The position numbers and the translations under genes are program-made. Below are positions 5,043 through 64,000 of a stretch of DNA of 64,000 nucleotides, piece after piece. The notes under the pieces are model-generated. The model was given only the letters and a program-made list of their open reading frames with translations, was not told where the DNA came from and did no database searches. How positions within the stretch are numbered: the first letter of the stretch is position 1; each line of letters begins with the position of its first letter. Source of the DNA: Sphingomonas sp. (GTDB lineage: Bacteria; Pseudomonadota; Alphaproteobacteria; Sphingomonadales; Sphingomonadaceae); assembly GCF_019746665.1 (NCBI RefSeq), contig NZ_JAIERS010000001.1, positions 124,001 through 188,000 of the forward strand, read 5' to 3'.

Positions 5043-5128
5043 GGAAGGGTGGCCGAGTGGTTAAAGGCAGCAGACTGTAAATCTGCCCGCGTGAGCGTAC
5101 GCTGGTTCGAATCCAGCCCCTTCCACCA
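5043..5128 (+). tRNA. tRNA-Tyr (anticodon GTA)
   Basis: Complete class II tRNA with encoded CCA. The acceptor stem GGAAGGG (5043-5049) pairs with CCCTTCC (5118-5124), followed by A and CCA. The anticodon stem-loop GCAGA-CTGTAAA-TCTGC places GTA at the anticodon. A long variable arm (CCGCGTGAGCGTAC) is typical of bacterial tRNA-Tyr. The T arm is GCTGG-TTCGAAT-CCAGC. Confidence 0.97.
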
Positions 5129-23895: not shown

Positions 23896-24357
23896 ATGCT
23901 CATAACCACCGACCCCGCCGCCTTCCGCGTCGCGCTTCCCCAGGGCGGGCGGCTGCTGGGGCTCGACGTGGGCACCAAGACGATCGGCACCGCGCTGTGC
24001 GACGCCGAATGGCATTTCGCGAGCCCCGCCCTGCTCATCCGGCGCACCAAATTCACCGCCGACAAGGCGGCGCTCGCCGGGCTGATCGCCGCGCAGGCGG
24101 TAAAGGGCCTCGTGATCGGCCTGCCGCTAAACCTGGACGGCAGCGACAGTCCGCGCACCCAGTCGACCCGCGCCTTCGCGCGCAACTGCGCCGATCTCGG
24201 CCCCATATTATTGTGGGATGAGCGCTGGTCGACCCAGGCGGTCGAACGCCAGATGATCGCCGAGGATCTCTCCCGCGCCAAGCGCGCCGAGCGAGTCGAT
24301 AAGCTTGCGGCGAGTTACATCCTGCAAGGCGCGATCGACGCGCTGGCGATGGGGTGA
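23896..24357 (+). CDS. ruvX: RuvX/YqgF family putative Holliday junction resolvase
   Basis: 153-residue RNase H-fold protein. [15 protein letters not shown] is the first catalytic segment, [24 protein letters not shown] the conserved G-x-P-x-N-x-D-G motif, and [15 protein letters not shown] the second acidic motif. YqgF proteins act in pre-16S rRNA 5' processing and were proposed as junction resolvases. Starts near the end of a run with DUF3089 and is convergent with ppk2. Confidence 0.92.
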
Positions 24358-24361
24358 GCAT

Positions 24362-25135
24362 TCACTCACCCAGCGCCGCCTTTGCCACGCGCGCCAGCTC
24401 GGGGTCGAGCGGCGGCGGTTCCAGCGGCACGAACGCTTCGAGCCGATCGGCCACCGCCTTCAGCGCCGCGATCCGCGCGGCCTTCTTGTCATTGGCGTCG
24501 ATCGCGACCCAGGGCGCCCAACGCGTATCGGTGCGGCGGAACATTTCGGCCATCGCTTCCAGATAATCCTGCCGCCGCGCCCGGTTGCGATAATCGTCGA
24601 GGCCCGTCTTCCAGCGTTTCCACGGGTCTTCGAGCCGCTCGCGCAGGCGTTTGTCCTGCTCCTTCTGGGTGATGTGGAGGAACAGCTTGATGATGGTCGT
24701 GCCGCTGTCGGCCTGCTGCGCTTCGAATTCGTTGATCTCGTCATAGCCGCGGCGCCATTCGGGCTCGCTCGCGAAACCTTCGACCCGTTCGACGAGGACG
24801 CGACCGTACCAGCTGCGATCGAACACTGCGATGTTGCCGGCCGCTGGCAGCCGCGTCCAGAAGCGCCAGAGAAAGTGGCGGGCGCGCTCCTCGGCGGAGG
24901 GGGCCGCGATGGGAAAAACCTCGAAATAGCGCGGGTCCCATTCGGCGGTCAGGCGCTTGATCGCCCCACCCTTGCCCGCCGCGTCCCAGCCCTCGAACAC
25001 GATCACGGCGCGGCGTTTGTGGCAAAGATGCGCCACCTGGAGACGGGCGAGCCGGGCCTGCAACGCCTTCAAATCAGCATCGTAATCAACTTCATATTCA
25101 GCGTTTTGTTCAAAGTCTTTGAGATTGATTGTCAT
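24362..25135 (-). CDS. ppk2: PPK2-family polyphosphate kinase
   Basis: 257-residue single-domain PPK2, which uses polyphosphate to phosphorylate nucleotides or the reverse. Walker A GWDAAGKGG (49-57), Walker B FDRSWYGRVLVER (105-117) and the lid RLEDPWKRWKTGLDDY are all present. The preference for NMP or NDP cannot be read confidently. ATG 25135 overlaps the stop of the upstream APC permease (ATGA), so the two are translationally coupled. A longer frame upstream is an antisense-like shadow of the permease. A separate ppk1-ppx operon lies at 30.8-34.5 kb. Confidence 0.92.
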   Translation of the reverse strand: MTINLKDFEQNAEYEVDYDADLKALQARLARLQVAHLCHKRRAVIVFEGWDAAGKGGAIKRLTAEWDPRYFEVFPIAAPSAEERARHFLWRFWTRLPAAGNIAVFDRSWYGRVLVERVEGFASEPEWRRGYDEINEFEAQQADSGTTIIKLFLHITQKEQDKRLRERLEDPWKRWKTGLDDYRNRARRQDYLEAMAEMFRRTDTRWAPWVAIDANDKKAARIAALKAVADRLEAFVPLEPPPLDPELARVAKAALGE

Positions 25136-26496
25136 GTCGTCACCGGCAAATGAACGGTCCAGGCGCCGCGCGGTCGCACGACCAACCCATAATAGAGCGC
25201 CGACAGCGCGATCTGCGCGGCGGTGACGATCAAGCCCGTCCGCCCCTCGCCCGCGTCGAGCGCGTTGAGCACGACCAGATACAGGCTCGCAGCGAGCGTG
25301 ACCACCGGCGCGAGCGGAAACCACGGCATCCGGAACGGCGCCCCCGCCGTCGCCCCGTGCATCCGCCCGACGATCGCGGCGAGCGCGATGCCGGCGTAGA
25401 TCGCGGTCAGCCCCAGCCCGCTGGCGACGAGCAGCAGCGGCAGCGGCACGAAGCAGCACAAAGCCCCCAGCCCGCCCGTCGCGAGCGTCGCGATCCACGG
25501 CGAGCCGAAGCGCGGGTGGATCGCCGCCATCAGCGCGTCGCACGGCGCCCCCCAGCAGCGGTCGCGCCCGGTGCCGTAGAAGAAGCGCGCGGTCGACAGG
25601 ATGCTCGCGATCGCGGCGTTGATGATCGCGACCGCGACGCCCAGCGCCACCGCCTGCCCCGCCAGCCGACCGAGCCGGTGGGCGACGAGGAAGCCGAACG
25701 GATCGTCCATCGCCAGCAGCGCGGGCAGATCGGGGGCGCCGATCAGCACCGCGGCGATCGGCAGGCCCTCGATCGCGATGGTTAGCAACGCCGCCCACAG
25801 GATCACCCGGCCGATCCGCGCCGGCGCCGCGCGCATCTCTTCCCCGAAATAGACCGCGACGCCGAAGCCGTTGAGCGCGAGCGTCGCGATCGCGGCGGCG
25901 ATGCCGATCGAAACGCCCCTCCCGGGCAGCGCCGCGCCGCTCCCGGGCATCACGGGGTCGGTGAGGAACAGCCAAAAGCCGCGCTCGGGCAACGCGATCC
26001 CCGCCCAAACCACCGCGAGCACCGCCAGCAGTTCGACGAGCAGGAAGGCGCCGGTGATCCAGGCGTTCACCCGGATTTCCAGCAACGCGACCAGCGTCGC
26101 CGCGACCACCACCGCGAGCGCGAGCGGCACCTGCGGCACGCCCGGCACCACCGCGCCCAACACCGCCGCGAGGCCCAGCCCCAGGATCGGCGGGAACAGC
26201 ACATTGTTGAACAGGTTGACGCCGAGCATCACGAACCCCGCCATCGGCCCCAGCGTGCGCGCGACGAACACATATTCGCCGCCCGCCACCGGCCAGCAGG
26301 AGGAGAGCTCGGCATAGACATAAGCGGTCGCCACGCAGATGACGCTCGCCAGCGCCATCGCCCAGATCGCCCCGGTGCCGGCGGCGTGGAGCATCCCCGG
26401 CACCGCCGCGAACAGCGAAGAGACAGGGCTCGCGACCGAAAGGGTGAGGAAAAGGACGCCCAAGGGGCCGAGGCTGCGGTTGAAGGATTGGGTCAC
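25132..26496 (-). CDS. APC-superfamily amino acid permease
   Basis: Inner-membrane transporter of about 454 residues with 12 predicted helices. The first helix has LTLSVASPVSSLFAAVPG, and AELSSCWPVAGGEYVFVARTLG matches the APC helix-2/3 signature. The substrate is probably an amino acid or amine. A frame opens at GTG 26532 inside the repeat, but GTG 26496 (VTQSFNRSLGPLG) lies 9 nt after GGAGGAG and gives a better start. The ribosome binding site is itself the end of the intergenic repeat. Coupled to ppk2. Confidence 0.85.
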   Translation of the reverse strand: MTQSFNRSLGPLGVLFLTLSVASPVSSLFAAVPGMLHAAGTGAIWAMALASVICVATAYVYAELSSCWPVAGGEYVFVARTLGPMAGFVMLGVNLFNNVLFPPILGLGLAAVLGAVVPGVPQVPLALAVVVAATLVALLEIRVNAWITGAFLLVELLAVLAVVWAGIALPERGFWLFLTDPVMPGSGAALPGRGVSIGIAAAIATLALNGFGVAVYFGEEMRAAPARIGRVILWAALLTIAIEGLPIAAVLIGAPDLPALLAMDDPFGFLVAHRLGRLAGQAVALGVAVAIINAAIASILSTARFFYGTGRDRCWGAPCDALMAAIHPRFGSPWIATLATGGLGALCCFVPLPLLLVASGLGLTAIYAGIALAAIVGRMHGATAGAPFRMPWFPLAPVVTLAASLYLVVLNALDAGEGRTGLIVTAAQIALSALYYGLVVRPRGAWTVHLPVTT

Positions 26497-28881: not shown

Positions 28882-30054
28882 ATGCACATTCACGATCTGA
28901 TCACCGACTCTGCCACGCTCGCCAATCTCTGCCACCGCTTGTCGCAAGCGCGTTTCATCACGGTCGATACCGAGTTCATGCGCGAGAACAGCTATTGGCC
29001 CGAGCTGTGCCTGATCCAGATCGCCGACGAGAACGAAGCCGCGGCGATCGATCCCAAGGCGCCCGATCTCGATCTGGGGCCGCTGCTCGAACTGCTGGTG
29101 AACAATGAGGAGGTGCTGAAGGTGTTCCACGCCGGCGGGCAGGACATCGAGATCATCTACAACCTCACCGGCAAGACCCCGCACCCGCTGTTCGACACCC
29201 AGATCGCGGCGATGGCGCTGGGGATGGGCGAGCAGATCGGCTATTCCAACCTGGTCGAGGCGTTCCTGGGGATCGGCATCGACAAGGGCGCGCGCTTCAC
29301 CGCCTGGAGCCGCCGTCCGCTCGACAAGCGCCAGATCGAATACGCCATCGGCGATGTGACGCACCTCGCGACGATCTTCCCCAAGATGCTGGACCGGCTG
29401 CGCAAGACCGGGCGCGGCGCCTGGCTCGACGAGGAGATGGAGCGCATCGCCGAGCCGGGCAATTATCGCAACGACCCCGATCAGGTGTGGCAGCGGGTGC
29501 GCATCCAGGGGCGCAAGCCCGAAGTGCTCGGCCGGCTGAAGGCGCTCGCCCGCTGGCGCGAGATCGAGGCGCAGACCAAGGATTTGCCGCGCGGGCGGAT
29601 CGTGAAGGACGAGACGCTGGCCGACCTGGCGCTGTCGCCGCCCAAGAAGCAGGCCGATCTGGCGAAGGTGCGCGGCCTCTCGGCGAGCTGGGCGGGGAAC
29701 GATATCGGCGCGCGGCTGATGGCGGCGCTGGAGGATGCGCGGCCGATGTCAGCCAGCGAAATGCCGCCGCGCGACGATCGCAAGCCCGGGCTGGGCAAGG
29801 ACGGCGCGCTGGTCGCCGATCTGTTGAAACTGCTTCTGAAGATTCGCGCGCGCGACATTGATGTGGCGGCGAAACTCCTCGCCCGCAGCGACGAGCTGGA
29901 GGCGCTCGCCGCCGGCCAGCGCCAGGGGCTGCCGATGCTGGAGGGCTGGCGCTACGAGCAGTTCGGCAAGGACGCGCTCGCGCTGGTCGAGGGGCGGCTG
30001 GGCTTCACGGTACGCGGCGGCAAGCTGAAGATGACGCGGGCGGAGGAAGCGTAA
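28882..30054 (+). CDS. rnd: Ribonuclease D
   Basis: 3'-5' exoribonuclease trimming tRNA and other stable RNA, 390 residues. DEDD exonuclease domain: FITVDTEFMRE (D29, E31), FHAGGQDIEIIYN and the final KRQIEYAIGDVTHL with the Tyr-Asp motif. An HRDC domain follows (near residues 212-290). The frame is open upstream, but MHIHDLITDS at ATG 28882 matches alphaproteobacterial RNase D starts. Divergent from the KGG gene. Confidence 0.94.
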   Translation: MHIHDLITDSATLANLCHRLSQARFITVDTEFMRENSYWPELCLIQIADENEAAAIDPKAPDLDLGPLLELLVNNEEVLKVFHAGGQDIEIIYNLTGKTPHPLFDTQIAAMALGMGEQIGYSNLVEAFLGIGIDKGARFTAWSRRPLDKRQIEYAIGDVTHLATIFPKMLDRLRKTGRGAWLDEEMERIAEPGNYRNDPDQVWQRVRIQGRKPEVLGRLKALARWREIEAQTKDLPRGRIVKDETLADLALSPPKKQADLAKVRGLSASWAGNDIGARLMAALEDARPMSASEMPPRDDRKPGLGKDGALVADLLKLLLKIRARDIDVAAKLLARSDELEALAAGQRQGLPMLEGWRYEQFGKDALALVEGRLGFTVRGGKLKMTRAEEA

Positions 30055-30091
30055 TCTGCTATAGACAGCGCAGTCTCAAGGAGAGTTGCCA

Positions 30092-30604
30092 GTGAAGCAC
30101 GATCTCGTCAAGCTCAACGAAAGCGACGGCAGCTGGGATGTTTTTTGCGCGCAATGGCGCGACAGCTGCACATTATATGACGAGGATTTTGAAACTTACG
30201 CACGCGATGCCATGCCTGTGCTTATTGATCTCGTTCGCCAACCGAAGGAGGGTGCGGGCGTCTATGCGCTTCGGTCGGAGCAGGGGTCGTTCGACGCCGC
30301 CTGCCAAGCCAATTCGACGTATCTGCCAGGTTATACGGGTAAAGTTTTACGGGTTCGCCATCTACTGATGTCGCCACATTTCGACTTTGGCGATTACCCT
30401 ATTGAAGATTATTCTCGCGTTTTGGCCCGCATGTTTTCGCGGACTATCGAATTGGCAAAATCCGATTTGCCTTCGGAACATATTAAGTTTCATCTGCGTA
30501 GTCCTGCTGACCGGCAGTTTTTTGAAGCGATGACCGAGGCGCTTCAGGCCGGCGGCATGTCGAATGTTGCATTGAAGGGAGCGTGGCTCTATTTAACGCT
30601 GTAA
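30092..30604 (+). CDS. Unrecognised 170-residue protein, possibly GNAT-fold
   Basis: No family recognised. It starts at GTG 30092, 6 nt after AAGGAGAG. Codon usage is noticeably more AT-rich than in rnd or ppx (TTTTTTGCG, AAAGTTTTACGG, many TTT/GAA/ATT codons). A possible GNAT-like order is seen: strand KVLRVRHLLMSPHFDF, helix YSRVLARMFSRTIELAKS, strand HIKFHLRS, helix ADRQFFEAMTEALQAGG and a final strand GAWLYLTL; this is inference only. Followed 31 bp later by a 45-residue frame, with which it may form a small acquired cassette. Confidence 0.7.
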   Translation: MKHDLVKLNESDGSWDVFCAQWRDSCTLYDEDFETYARDAMPVLIDLVRQPKEGAGVYALRSEQGSFDAACQANSTYLPGYTGKVLRVRHLLMSPHFDFGDYPIEDYSRVLARMFSRTIELAKSDLPSEHIKFHLRSPADRQFFEAMTEALQAGGMSNVALKGAWLYLTL

Positions 30605-30635
30605 GCCTGGGCGTAGCTTGGGCGGGGAGTCGCAA

Positions 30636-30773
30636 ATGAAGCAGAATTTGGACGCGATTTTTGAAGTCGCTATCAAGTCCGCGATCCAAAAAATCGGCGT
30701 GACCGCGTTCAAGCGGACGTCGTTTTTCGCCTCTAACGAGGCCACTCGGCCGAGCCTCGCGAAGGCAGCGTAA
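30636..30773 (+). CDS. Small 45-residue protein downstream of the unknown gene
   Basis: ATG 30636 is preceded by GGGGAG at 7-nt spacing and the frame ends at TAA 30773, 4 bp before the stop of convergent ppx. The N-terminal half (MKQNLDAIFEVAIKSAIQKI) is a likely amphipathic helix, followed by a basic TAFKRTSFF segment and a Ser/Ala-rich tail. Codon use matches the AT-richer upstream gene. No family recognised. Confidence 0.5.
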   Translation: MKQNLDAIFEVAIKSAIQKIGVTAFKRTSFFASNEATRPSLAKAA

Positions 30774-30777
30774 CAGC

Positions 30778-32283
30778 CTATCCTGTTGTTCGCACCACCG
30801 CCGGTCGCCCGAGCGCGCCGGCCAGCGCCTTATGGCGGCGCTCGACCGCTTCGGAATAGAGCGCGCGATCGTCGCCGCTCAACGTCAACGCCAGCGCCTC
30901 GCCGTCGTCGCGCAGCGCCGAGCGGGTCAGCGGTCCGGCGAGCCCGCCTGACAGGCGCTGCCCCAGCCGCATCGCCAACCCCCAGGCGACCGCGCGCTTC
31001 AGCTCGGCGGGCGTCGCGAGCGCCGGCAGCGGATCGGGCGAGGTCAGCCCGCCGCCGAGCGAGGTGAACAGCGCCTGCGCCACCAGCGCGCGGCCGGCGG
31101 CGTCGATCGCGACCCAGTTGCCGTGGAGCGCGATCTCCATGCCGCGTTCGGCGCGGAATTCGGGGTTGGCGCGCCAGCCCACGTCCGCGAGGAGGCAGGC
31201 GGCGTGGCGCAGCCGCGTCAGCCGCGCGCCGTCGCCCTCGAACAGCGGCGCGATCCAGCCGTCGAGCAGGTCGCCATGTTCGGGGAAGCGCCCCAGCCGC
31301 CGCCCCTCGTCGCGCGCGGCGACGATCAGCGGATCGAGCGCGCGCTCCTCGGGCGCGAGCGCCGCGTAGAGCAGTCCCTCGCGCAGCCCGAAGGCGGAGA
31401 CGATCGTCGTGCTCGATCCCAGATGCCGCAGCAGCACGCCGAGCAGCGCGCAGGCGTCCCCCAGCGTCGGGATGCGCGACGATGACAGGTTGGGAATCGC
31501 CCGCAGCGTGCTCTTCGAGATGTGCGCGAGGGTGCGCGAAAGCCGCGCGATCGCAGCCGGCGGCATCTCATATTGGTGGATGATCGGCAACTCATAGCCG
31601 GTCTGGTGCATGTCGAGCCGGGCGAGCGAGCGCCATGATCCGCCGACGAGGTAGAAGGGCAGCCCCGCGCCCGCGCCTTCCCAGCCCGCCGCCGCGATCA
31701 GCCGATCGACCGCGCGATCGAATTTGCGCGGCCCCTCGCCCCGGAGCGCCGGCAGCCGCAGCACGCCGAGCGGGAAGCTGGCGCGCGCATGGACCGCGCC
31801 GTCCTTCACCCGCACCAGTTCCAGGCTCCCGCCGCCGAGATCGCCGACGATGCCGTCCGCCTCGGGGATCGCGGAAAGCACGCCCAACCCCGACCCCAGC
31901 GCCTCCTGCTCGCCCGACAGCAATTCGACCGTCAGCCCCATCGCCCGCGCCTCGGCGAGGAGTTCGCCGCCATTGGCCGCGTCGCGCACCGCCGCGGTCG
32001 CGACCACTTTCAGCGCCGCGACATCCATCTCGCGCGCGACGGCGGCGAACCGCGCGAGCGCCATCCGCGCGAGGTCGAGCGCGGCGGGGTCGATCGCCCC
32101 CGTCTCGGCGAAACCGCGCCCCAGCCCCGCCATCACCTTCTCGTTGAACAAAATCGCCGGCAGCCGCGCCGGTCCCTGATAGACGACCAGGCGGATCGAG
32201 TTCGAGCCGATGTCGATGATCGCGGTGCGCGGCTCGACGCCCGCCGGGCGGGCCTTCGCCTTGCCGAAGAACAAGGTCGCCAT
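30778..32283 (-). CDS. ppx: Exopolyphosphatase / guanosine pentaphosphatase (Ppx/GppA)
   Basis: 501-residue ASKHA-fold phosphatase. IDIGSNSIRLVVY at about 23-35 is the first phosphate loop and GIVGDLGGGSLELVRV the second. The C-terminal half is HD-like and helical (ACLLADVGWRANPEFRAERG). Hydrolyses terminal phosphates of polyphosphate or pppGpp. It overlaps ppk1 by one base (TGATG), so polyP synthesis and breakdown are cotranslated. Confidence 0.93.
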   Translation of the reverse strand: MATLFFGKAKARPAGVEPRTAIIDIGSNSIRLVVYQGPARLPAILFNEKVMAGLGRGFAETGAIDPAALDLARMALARFAAVAREMDVAALKVVATAAVRDAANGGELLAEARAMGLTVELLSGEQEALGSGLGVLSAIPEADGIVGDLGGGSLELVRVKDGAVHARASFPLGVLRLPALRGEGPRKFDRAVDRLIAAAGWEGAGAGLPFYLVGGSWRSLARLDMHQTGYELPIIHQYEMPPAAIARLSRTLAHISKSTLRAIPNLSSSRIPTLGDACALLGVLLRHLGSSTTIVSAFGLREGLLYAALAPEERALDPLIVAARDEGRRLGRFPEHGDLLDGWIAPLFEGDGARLTRLRHAACLLADVGWRANPEFRAERGMEIALHGNWVAIDAAGRALVAQALFTSLGGGLTSPDPLPALATPAELKRAVAWGLAMRLGQRLSGGLAGPLTRSALRDDGEALALTLSGDDRALYSEAVERRHKALAGALGRPAVVRTTG

Positions 32284-61800: not shown

Positions 61801-61872
61801 GCGTCTCTAGGCGTGCCTGGCCCGGCGGCAACCGGGACGCTTATTTTCGGCTGACGAGGCGATACCGACCCC

Positions 61873-64000
<2,128 letters not shown>

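Follow-up and report, generated by a model that had tools for sequence, protein, structure and literature searches.

A mainly phage-borne gene pair encoding a predicted GNAT-fold protein without a CoA loop and a microprotein, found between rnd and ppx in a Sphingomonas genome

The stretch of Sphingomonas sp. DNA analysed here, 64,000 nucleotides in all and referred to below as the window, carries two genes in the same orientation between rnd and ppx/gppA (Table 1). They are separated by 31 bp, both frames are intact, and both are preceded by a purine-rich ribosome binding site (RBS). The original prediction had placed two intact genes of 170 and 45 codons with ribosome binding sites between rnd and ppx, and the open reading frames (ORFs) together with the Pfam matches of the flanking genes confirm this. 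Its further description of an AT-richer cassette with a codon use unlike that of its neighbours was borne out as well. The two 500-base segments that cover the pair have a GC of 0.53, as against 0.70-0.75 in the nearest segments clear of it (29250-29999 and 30750-31749), with values of 0.61-0.66 just left of these. The large ORF departs strongly from the 53 window genes used as reference: its GC3 is 0.56 where theirs averages 0.85 (sd 0.05), and its codon fit, -1.37 against -0.83 (sd 0.12), is below every one of theirs. The small ORF departs more mildly (GC3 0.74, codon fit -1.13). The contrast is overstated, since the reference genes were chosen by their GC3 bias. The lowest GC3 values among the 53 belong to the ORFs at 61807-63744 (- strand, 0.64) and 24305-25153 (+ strand, 0.69), neither of which has a Pfam match at E 0.01. 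At the window copy no promoter-like site of its own was found, and an RNA family search gave a single weak match (E 0.81). Both window proteins were compared with Pfam, PHROGs, NCBIfam and PADLOC, where all matches were at chance level (best E 0.028, for the small ORF); a match to a household family was sought and none was found, so that the family is as unrecognisable to these four libraries as had been proposed.

Table 1. Features of the window locus, and phage-type genes near the pair at other loci
Feature	Position or locus	Strand	Description and basis
Large gene	30092-30604	+	GTG start, 170 aa; predicted GNAT-fold protein without CoA loop; ORF list
RBS of large gene, AAGGAGAG	30078-30085	+	Direct reading
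Small gene	30636-30773	+	ATG start, 45 aa, C-terminus ...LAKAA; ORF and family profile
RBS of small gene, GGGGAG	30624-30629	+	Direct reading
rnd, flanking core gene	28882-30054	+	Pfam: DNA_pol_A_exo1 and HRDC (RNase D type, 3'-5' exonuclease)
ppx/gppA, flanking core gene	30778-32283	-	Pfam: Ppx-GppA and Ppx_C
Junction downstream of rnd stop, 37 bp	30055-30091	+	Direct reading
Tape measure	L088		PHROGs neighbour of pair
Terminase	L089, L035, L006		PHROGs neighbour of pair
Portal	L090, L094		PHROGs neighbour of pair
Amidase	L091		PHROGs neighbour of pair
Integrase	L092		PHROGs neighbour of pair
RusA	L093		PHROGs neighbour of pair
Head protease	L095		PHROGs neighbour of pair

After removal of duplicates the pair is known from 19 distinct loci, the window included, and eight further genomes have the large gene without the small one. 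In each of the 19 paired loci the small gene lies 3' of the large gene, which it either overlaps or follows at a distance of at most 119 bp. A single-protein search of 396 genomes of the order returned one sure relative, in Novosphingobium sp. AP12 (39% identity, E 3e-31). With alignments as queries and a threshold of E<=0.001, matches were obtained in 3 of 385 genomes of the class, in 7 of 398 genomes of the phylum, in 1/9, 7/119, 1/18 and 1/7 genomes of the families to which members belong, and in 3 of 347 genomes of one more family search, each count taking in the genome used as centre. Scans of viral contigs yielded 1, 3 and 9 loci with repeats among them; further scans of this kind added no loci (none, or repeats only), and tblastn against phage and plasmid collections gave nothing credible (best E 0.8). 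The nearest relative of the window's large protein is 53% identical to it. The unit is known from viral contigs and alphaproteobacterial genomes, and two divergent, tentative members come from other parts of the phylum; its occurrence is rare and scattered, as for mobile cargo.

Three of the 19 loci (L006, L033 and L034) are tentative members, as their large proteins are 15-21% identical to that of the window and their small ORFs, with first-profile E values of 0.44, 0.03 and 0.28, were accepted by position and by eye. L006 was retained from the single-protein list because a profile lifted its large protein to E 3e-12. The other doubtful matches on that list, L003-L005 and L007-L020 (E 0.003-0.1), were discarded as chance; L009, at a profile E of 0.004, was judged by eye to be a likely chance frame. 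We also rejected L037, a viral match of L025 (E 3e-4), as a chance match of a 185-aa ORF amid long ORFs of phage structural type. The literature covered (titles and the starts of abstracts, with few subscription papers) holds no description of this pair.

The small protein was first noticed by eye beside the first relative. A profile of nine sequences then ranked the ORF downstream of the large gene top at L045, L051 and L050 (E 6e-6, 6e-4 and 0.01, among 3236 ORFs), and a 12-row profile detected the small ORF at 7/7 new viral loci (E 6e-16 to 1e-7, among 897 ORFs), an eighth, L094, being excluded as a repeat of L051. The protein was in this way recovered at 10 of 10 loci outside the set from which the profiles were built. 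Furthermore, the distances between small proteins follow those between the large proteins encoded beside them: the correlation is r 0.67 for 17 of the 19 pairs, two with partial large sequences being left out, and r 0.58 when the three tentative members are omitted, and in neither case did any of 10000 permutations reach the observed value. This out-of-sample recovery and the co-divergence with the large protein indicate that the small protein is real, and not a chance ORF.

Across loci the small protein measures 41-60 aa, and by eye a single amphipathic stretch, a basic tail and a motif resembling G-x4-[KR]-x2-S-x-F can be made out in it. Twelve members compared with Pfam gave chance matches only (E>=0.068), RHH and DUF1778 being absent, and the best match of the small-protein profile among solved-structure sequences had E 0.16. 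The most regular feature is found at the C-terminus, where 17/19 small proteins end in Ala-Ala as compared with 3/53 window genes; the exceptions are L033 and L034. According to a portion of PMC7652416, no element of the ssrA degron matters more to ClpXP than the terminal Ala-Ala. Judged by its residues, the tail of the small protein fits a predicted ClpXP degron, and Ala-Ala ends in Ala-rich genomes may also have other causes.

A small gene without a large gene was seen neither in 18 genomes (eight with a solo large gene and ten with the pair, in which the small match lies beside the large gene by construction) nor in 166 genomes of the order. In the latter set the strong matches were confined to the window genome and G110, both of which have the pair; partial matches in G084, G086 and G073 (E 0.001-0.01, covering profile positions 4-29 at most) were judged to be chance, their sequences remaining unread. 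At L024:1223-1833 (= L027:9639-10249) the large gene is split into overlapping frames of 95 and 110 aa and the small gene is intact; the break is either real or a sequencing error. The two-gene reading had been staked on the 45-residue frame recurring at orthologous loci. It stood in so far as the frame is present at the 18 other paired loci, and failed for the eight genomes in which the large gene occurs and the frame is absent.

A comparison of the rnd-ppx junction in related genomes, which had likewise been proposed, was carried out. The large protein was found in none of 60 relatives besides the window's own genome. The gene rnd is present in 57 of the 61 genomes, and 30 of these loci were examined, namely the window and 29 others (L059-L087), in seven of which no ppx was found in the fetched stretch. 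At least 19 of the 29 have an ORF of 85-107 aa that starts inside the rnd stop codon, a lower bound given that the longest ORF alone was scored per locus, and both of the two such ORFs tested were of the Inhibitor_I78 type; L059, L069, L074 and L083 have no ORF of this size at the rnd stop. Since the contents differ among relatives, the slot between the two core genes is variable, and in the window it is taken up by the pair. A search for target-site duplications or att repeats at the junction returned just short, chance-like repeats. No tRNA adjoins the pair in the six loci scanned, the sole tRNA of the window being at 5043.

In the window the pair stands by itself, with chromosomal genes on both sides. 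Eleven of the paired loci are on IMG/VR contigs. At ten loci one protein lying no more than about 5 kb from the pair was compared with PHROGs, and each of the ten matched a phage family (Table 1). The AP12 copy is near a phage lysozyme and L050 adjoins a serine recombinase; for a long ORF in L036 Pfam gave no match. Translated comparison of the flanks (up to 1.5 kb, some of them shortened by contig ends) found common sequence in 2 of 171 locus pairs, L006-L095 and L035-L092. The differing phage neighbours imply that the pair occupies different modules of different phages, and one unit recurring in unrelated phage modules is what defines a moron, or phage cargo. In the libraries searched it is a family without annotation, carried mainly by phages. 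Neither this phage association nor the conserved Ala-Ala end was part of the original prediction. No searched family model covers either protein, and annotation would consequently give two hypothetical proteins or overlook the small one.

Some neighbours of the pair deserve mention in their own right. Directly upstream of the large gene, L035 (5750-6001) and L092 (2702-2944) have related small HTH genes (HTH_3/HTH_31) within related upstream flanks. A DUF5131 gene lies just upstream of the pair on a viral contig (L036:894-1829). At L034, a tentative and divergent locus, a SocA_Panacea (DUF4065) gene is located 244 bp beyond the small gene (630-1073, - strand), and the ORF upstream is presumably an IS66-type transposase.

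The large protein had been guessed to be a degenerate GNAT from the order of its strands and helices, and the structure prediction then recommended supports this guess. AlphaFold2 with a 12-row alignment returned a confident model (pLDDT 93.0, pTM 0.87), which superseded an earlier single-sequence model (pLDDT 55, mostly helical, with weak and unrelated neighbours). Its elements, E3-8, H14-28, H40-49, E55-62, E67-77, E84-93, H104-123, E130-134, H138-153, E159-162 and E165-169, follow the GNAT core order b1-a1-a2-b2-b3-b4-a3-b5-a4-b6-b7. In structural alignments 644 of 999 PDB chains reached Z>=8. The best neighbour is a Bacillus acetyltransferase (8q6u; Z 11.2, 3.2 Å over 133), with which AtaT ties (6gtq; Z 11.2, 3.5 Å over 138), and TacT3 (7ak9; Z 10.9, 3.3 Å over 135), KacT (5xun; Z 10.5, 3.3 Å over 137) and GmvT (9ils; Z 10.5, 3.2 Å over 134) follow closely. 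Also within one Z unit of the best is 4crz, which we take to be PanZ with PanD, and nearly all of the best 50 neighbours are titled as acetyltransferases or GNAT toxins. Since the nearest structures tie in Z, the model favours no GNAT subfamily. Foldseek gave 112 PDB matches and 60 viral matches at E<=0.001, with TMq values against solved GNATs that were moderate, mostly 0.4-0.57. Comparisons at the level of sequence gave nothing of the kind: against solved-structure sequences the best E was 1.2 for the large protein and 4.8 for a 13-row profile, the 13 large members matched no Pfam or NCBIfam GNAT model at E 1, and against PHROGs, through which alone kinship with Mom was probed, they gave nothing below E 0.16.

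In GNATs the CoA pyrophosphate loop, R/Q-x-x-G-x-G/A, is located between strand 4 and helix 3. This loop is missing from the expected place in all 23 large sequences inspected, four of which are solo copies, so that the fold would indeed be degenerate; the motif occurs elsewhere in the sequence in L035 and L050 only, and the loop position mostly reads S/A-P-x-x-D/E-F/Y/L instead. Eight residues are invariant in the 12-row alignment (P95, D98, Y107, F133, H134, S137, G163 and W165); some follow strand 4 or sit where helix 3 begins, others sit where strand 5 ends, and the rest fall in the final two strands. To go by the order of the elements in the model, the first groups of these would line the usual GNAT groove. 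D98, H134 and W165 are not universal, being altered in 3/4 of the solo sequences aligned. Differences between paired and solo sequences at C26, N74, K132, L151, V159 and L166 are confounded by the kinship of the four solo sequences and were left unused. LuxI-type synthases have a GNAT fold without the CoA loop; none is among the best 50 structure neighbours, which excludes nothing. Taking the context and the model together, we hold it to be very probable that the pair is a mobile, mainly phage-borne unit of a GNAT-fold protein and a microprotein.

The genomes in which the large gene occurs without the small gene (G1059, G995, G980, G1057, G1176, G1215, G1236 and G1254) belong to one family, and across them the small-protein profile gave best E values of 0.02-0.27; G1196, from the same family and the ninth of its genomes with the large gene, has both genes. 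Seven of the eight solo copies were tested, and their dN/dS is below 1, at about 0.03-0.12 among near relatives and 0.2-0.37 over larger distances, at which dS is often above 1 and unreliable. The solo copies tested are under purifying selection, and the large protein can consequently persist without its partner; these copies could be domesticated. Toxin-antitoxin systems usually show the opposite of what is seen here, namely solo large genes and no solo small gene, and the general type II rule that an effector comes with its antitoxin fails in the eight genomes. In a plain toxin-antitoxin pair it is rather the toxin that would be lost, a loss that L024 may have undergone. The solo copies offer a natural contrast for learning what the partner does.

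We propose, at a probability of roughly 40%, that the pair is a phage-borne cargo unit with a labile-inhibitor mechanism that resembles a toxin-antitoxin system. By their titles the structures 6gtq, 7ak9 and 9ils contain a GNAT toxin with only a C-terminal piece of the antitoxin bound, and those of AtaT and TacT3 imply that a GNAT toxin can be bound by a fragment of this kind. A short and possibly labile protein encoded together with one of GNAT fold points to an inhibitor, the loss of which would release an effector. According to this proposal the microprotein would bind the GNAT-fold protein and keep it inactive, and its Ala-Ala tail would make it a substrate of the ClpXP type. When expression is disturbed, through loss of the cassette, phage takeover or stress, the microprotein would vanish, and the released GNAT-fold protein could then hit a target of the cell or the phage by way of the groove at strands 4 and 5 (P95, D98, Y107, H134, S137), either with a donor other than classically bound acetyl-CoA or by binding alone. 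The outcome would be a pair of the toxin-antitoxin or phage-exclusion kind in which the gene order is reversed and the antitoxin is a microprotein without a recognisable DNA-binding domain; the HTH_3/HTH_31 gene of two loci could provide operator control there, as PaaR2 does for PaaA2-ParE2. Considered by itself, the effector and labile-inhibitor mechanism is tentative and falls somewhat short of even odds. We find it doubtful that the pair is specifically a phage conflict module of a new kind, with a GNAT effector that is devoid of the CoA loop and works through another chemistry or through binding only, an antitoxin of about 45 aa bearing an ssrA-type degron and no recognisable DNA-binding domain, and ClpXP, or a phage disturbing it, as the trigger.

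Alternatively, the GNAT-fold protein might be an enzyme of host takeover or anti-defence that modifies a host protein, RNA or the phage DNA, with the small protein as its activator, chaperone or expression regulator. Such activities are familiar from phages: Rac of phiKMV modifies RNA polymerase, and Mom of Mu modifies adenine. The phage setting of most paired loci would agree with this explanation, as would the purifying selection on the solo large gene in one family and the fact that the small gene was never seen without the large gene, as expected of an accessory; phage GNATs in such roles are described in part of PMC7824862. We nevertheless consider it rather unlikely, given that the 13 large members have no PHROGs match below E 0.16, that the CoA loop is missing in 23/23 sequences, and that the window copy lies by itself between two core genes, a place in which a takeover gene would have no obvious use. 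Compared with the inhibitor reading, it accounts better for the solo copies and worse for the Ala-Ala tail.

The roles could also be exchanged, so that the small protein is an effector or adaptor whose Ala-Ala tail serves to hand over to ClpXP a protein that it has bound, with the GNAT-fold protein as the binding regulator of the small one. PanZ is a precedent, being a GNAT that acts on PanD by binding, and 4crz is among the tied nearest folds; the missing CoA loop and the Ala-Ala tail in 17/19 small proteins are consistent with this arrangement too. Eight genomes keep the large gene alone, which makes the small gene the dispensable part there and the explanation improbable. We give equally poor odds to the view that the window pair is the decaying remnant of a prophage or larger element, without present function. 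Its place directly between two core genes, the lack of the large protein in 60/60 other relatives and the broken large frame at L024 would suit a relic, but the window copy has kept both frames, both ribosome binding sites, the conserved residues and the Ala-Ala tail; with the nearest relative only 53% identical, selection on this copy is beyond measurement. Finally, an ordinary acetyltransferase gene trailed by a chance small ORF would explain the GNAT fold and is otherwise very hard to sustain, as the small ORF is conserved as a protein whose divergence tracks that of the large one, no CoA loop is present, and 13 members match no Pfam or NCBIfam GNAT model at E 1.

If the labile-inhibitor mechanism that we prefer is true, the pair would represent a GNAT system that lacks both the CoA loop and an RHH antitoxin and has its two genes in the opposite order, and would be a test case for antitoxin lability encoded in a two-residue tail. 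Several known systems invite comparison. Non-RHH antitoxins are combined with GNAT toxins in the GNAT-DUF4065 (Panacea) pairs, as outlined in part of PMC9177977, and a SocA_Panacea gene does occur near our pair at the tentative locus L034; this is one locus only, however, and the window pair is adjoined by ppx and by no Panacea gene. The prophage system PaaR2-PaaA2-ParE2 has three components, among them a separate regulator gene in the toxin-antitoxin operon (PMC8630535, in part). Our pair shares with it the prophage setting and, at L035 and L092, a preceding HTH gene; it differs in that the toxin there is ParE2 and that an HTH gene is found at 2/19 loci and not in the window. In Mu, a small companion gene, Com, lies upstream of mom and encodes a zinc finger, whereas the small gene of our pair lies downstream and has no Pfam domain, and the large protein has no PHROGs match. 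The Mom family itself consists of divergent enzymes of the GNAT superfamily on phages, as far as the consulted part of PMC7824862 goes.

A further parallel is provided by the GNAT-RHH systems TacAT, AtaRT, KacAT and GmvAT, which also consist of two genes and include a GNAT-fold protein of like size. In these systems the antitoxin gene is upstream of the toxin gene (PMC9431474, in the part available); in ours the partner is downstream at 19/19 loci, and the pair has neither an RHH or DUF1778 match nor the R/Q-x-x-G-x-G/A loop. Identity to the GNAT-RHH toxins is 6-11%, and other GNATs score equally, hence no special kinship emerges. The original prediction had withheld a GNAT-RHH assignment on account of the gene order and the missing RHH antitoxin, and both points, now examined, justify that restraint. 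To judge from the sequences compared, the pair constitutes a new family and is not a member of the GNAT-RHH toxin-antitoxin systems, and it may work in a similar way.
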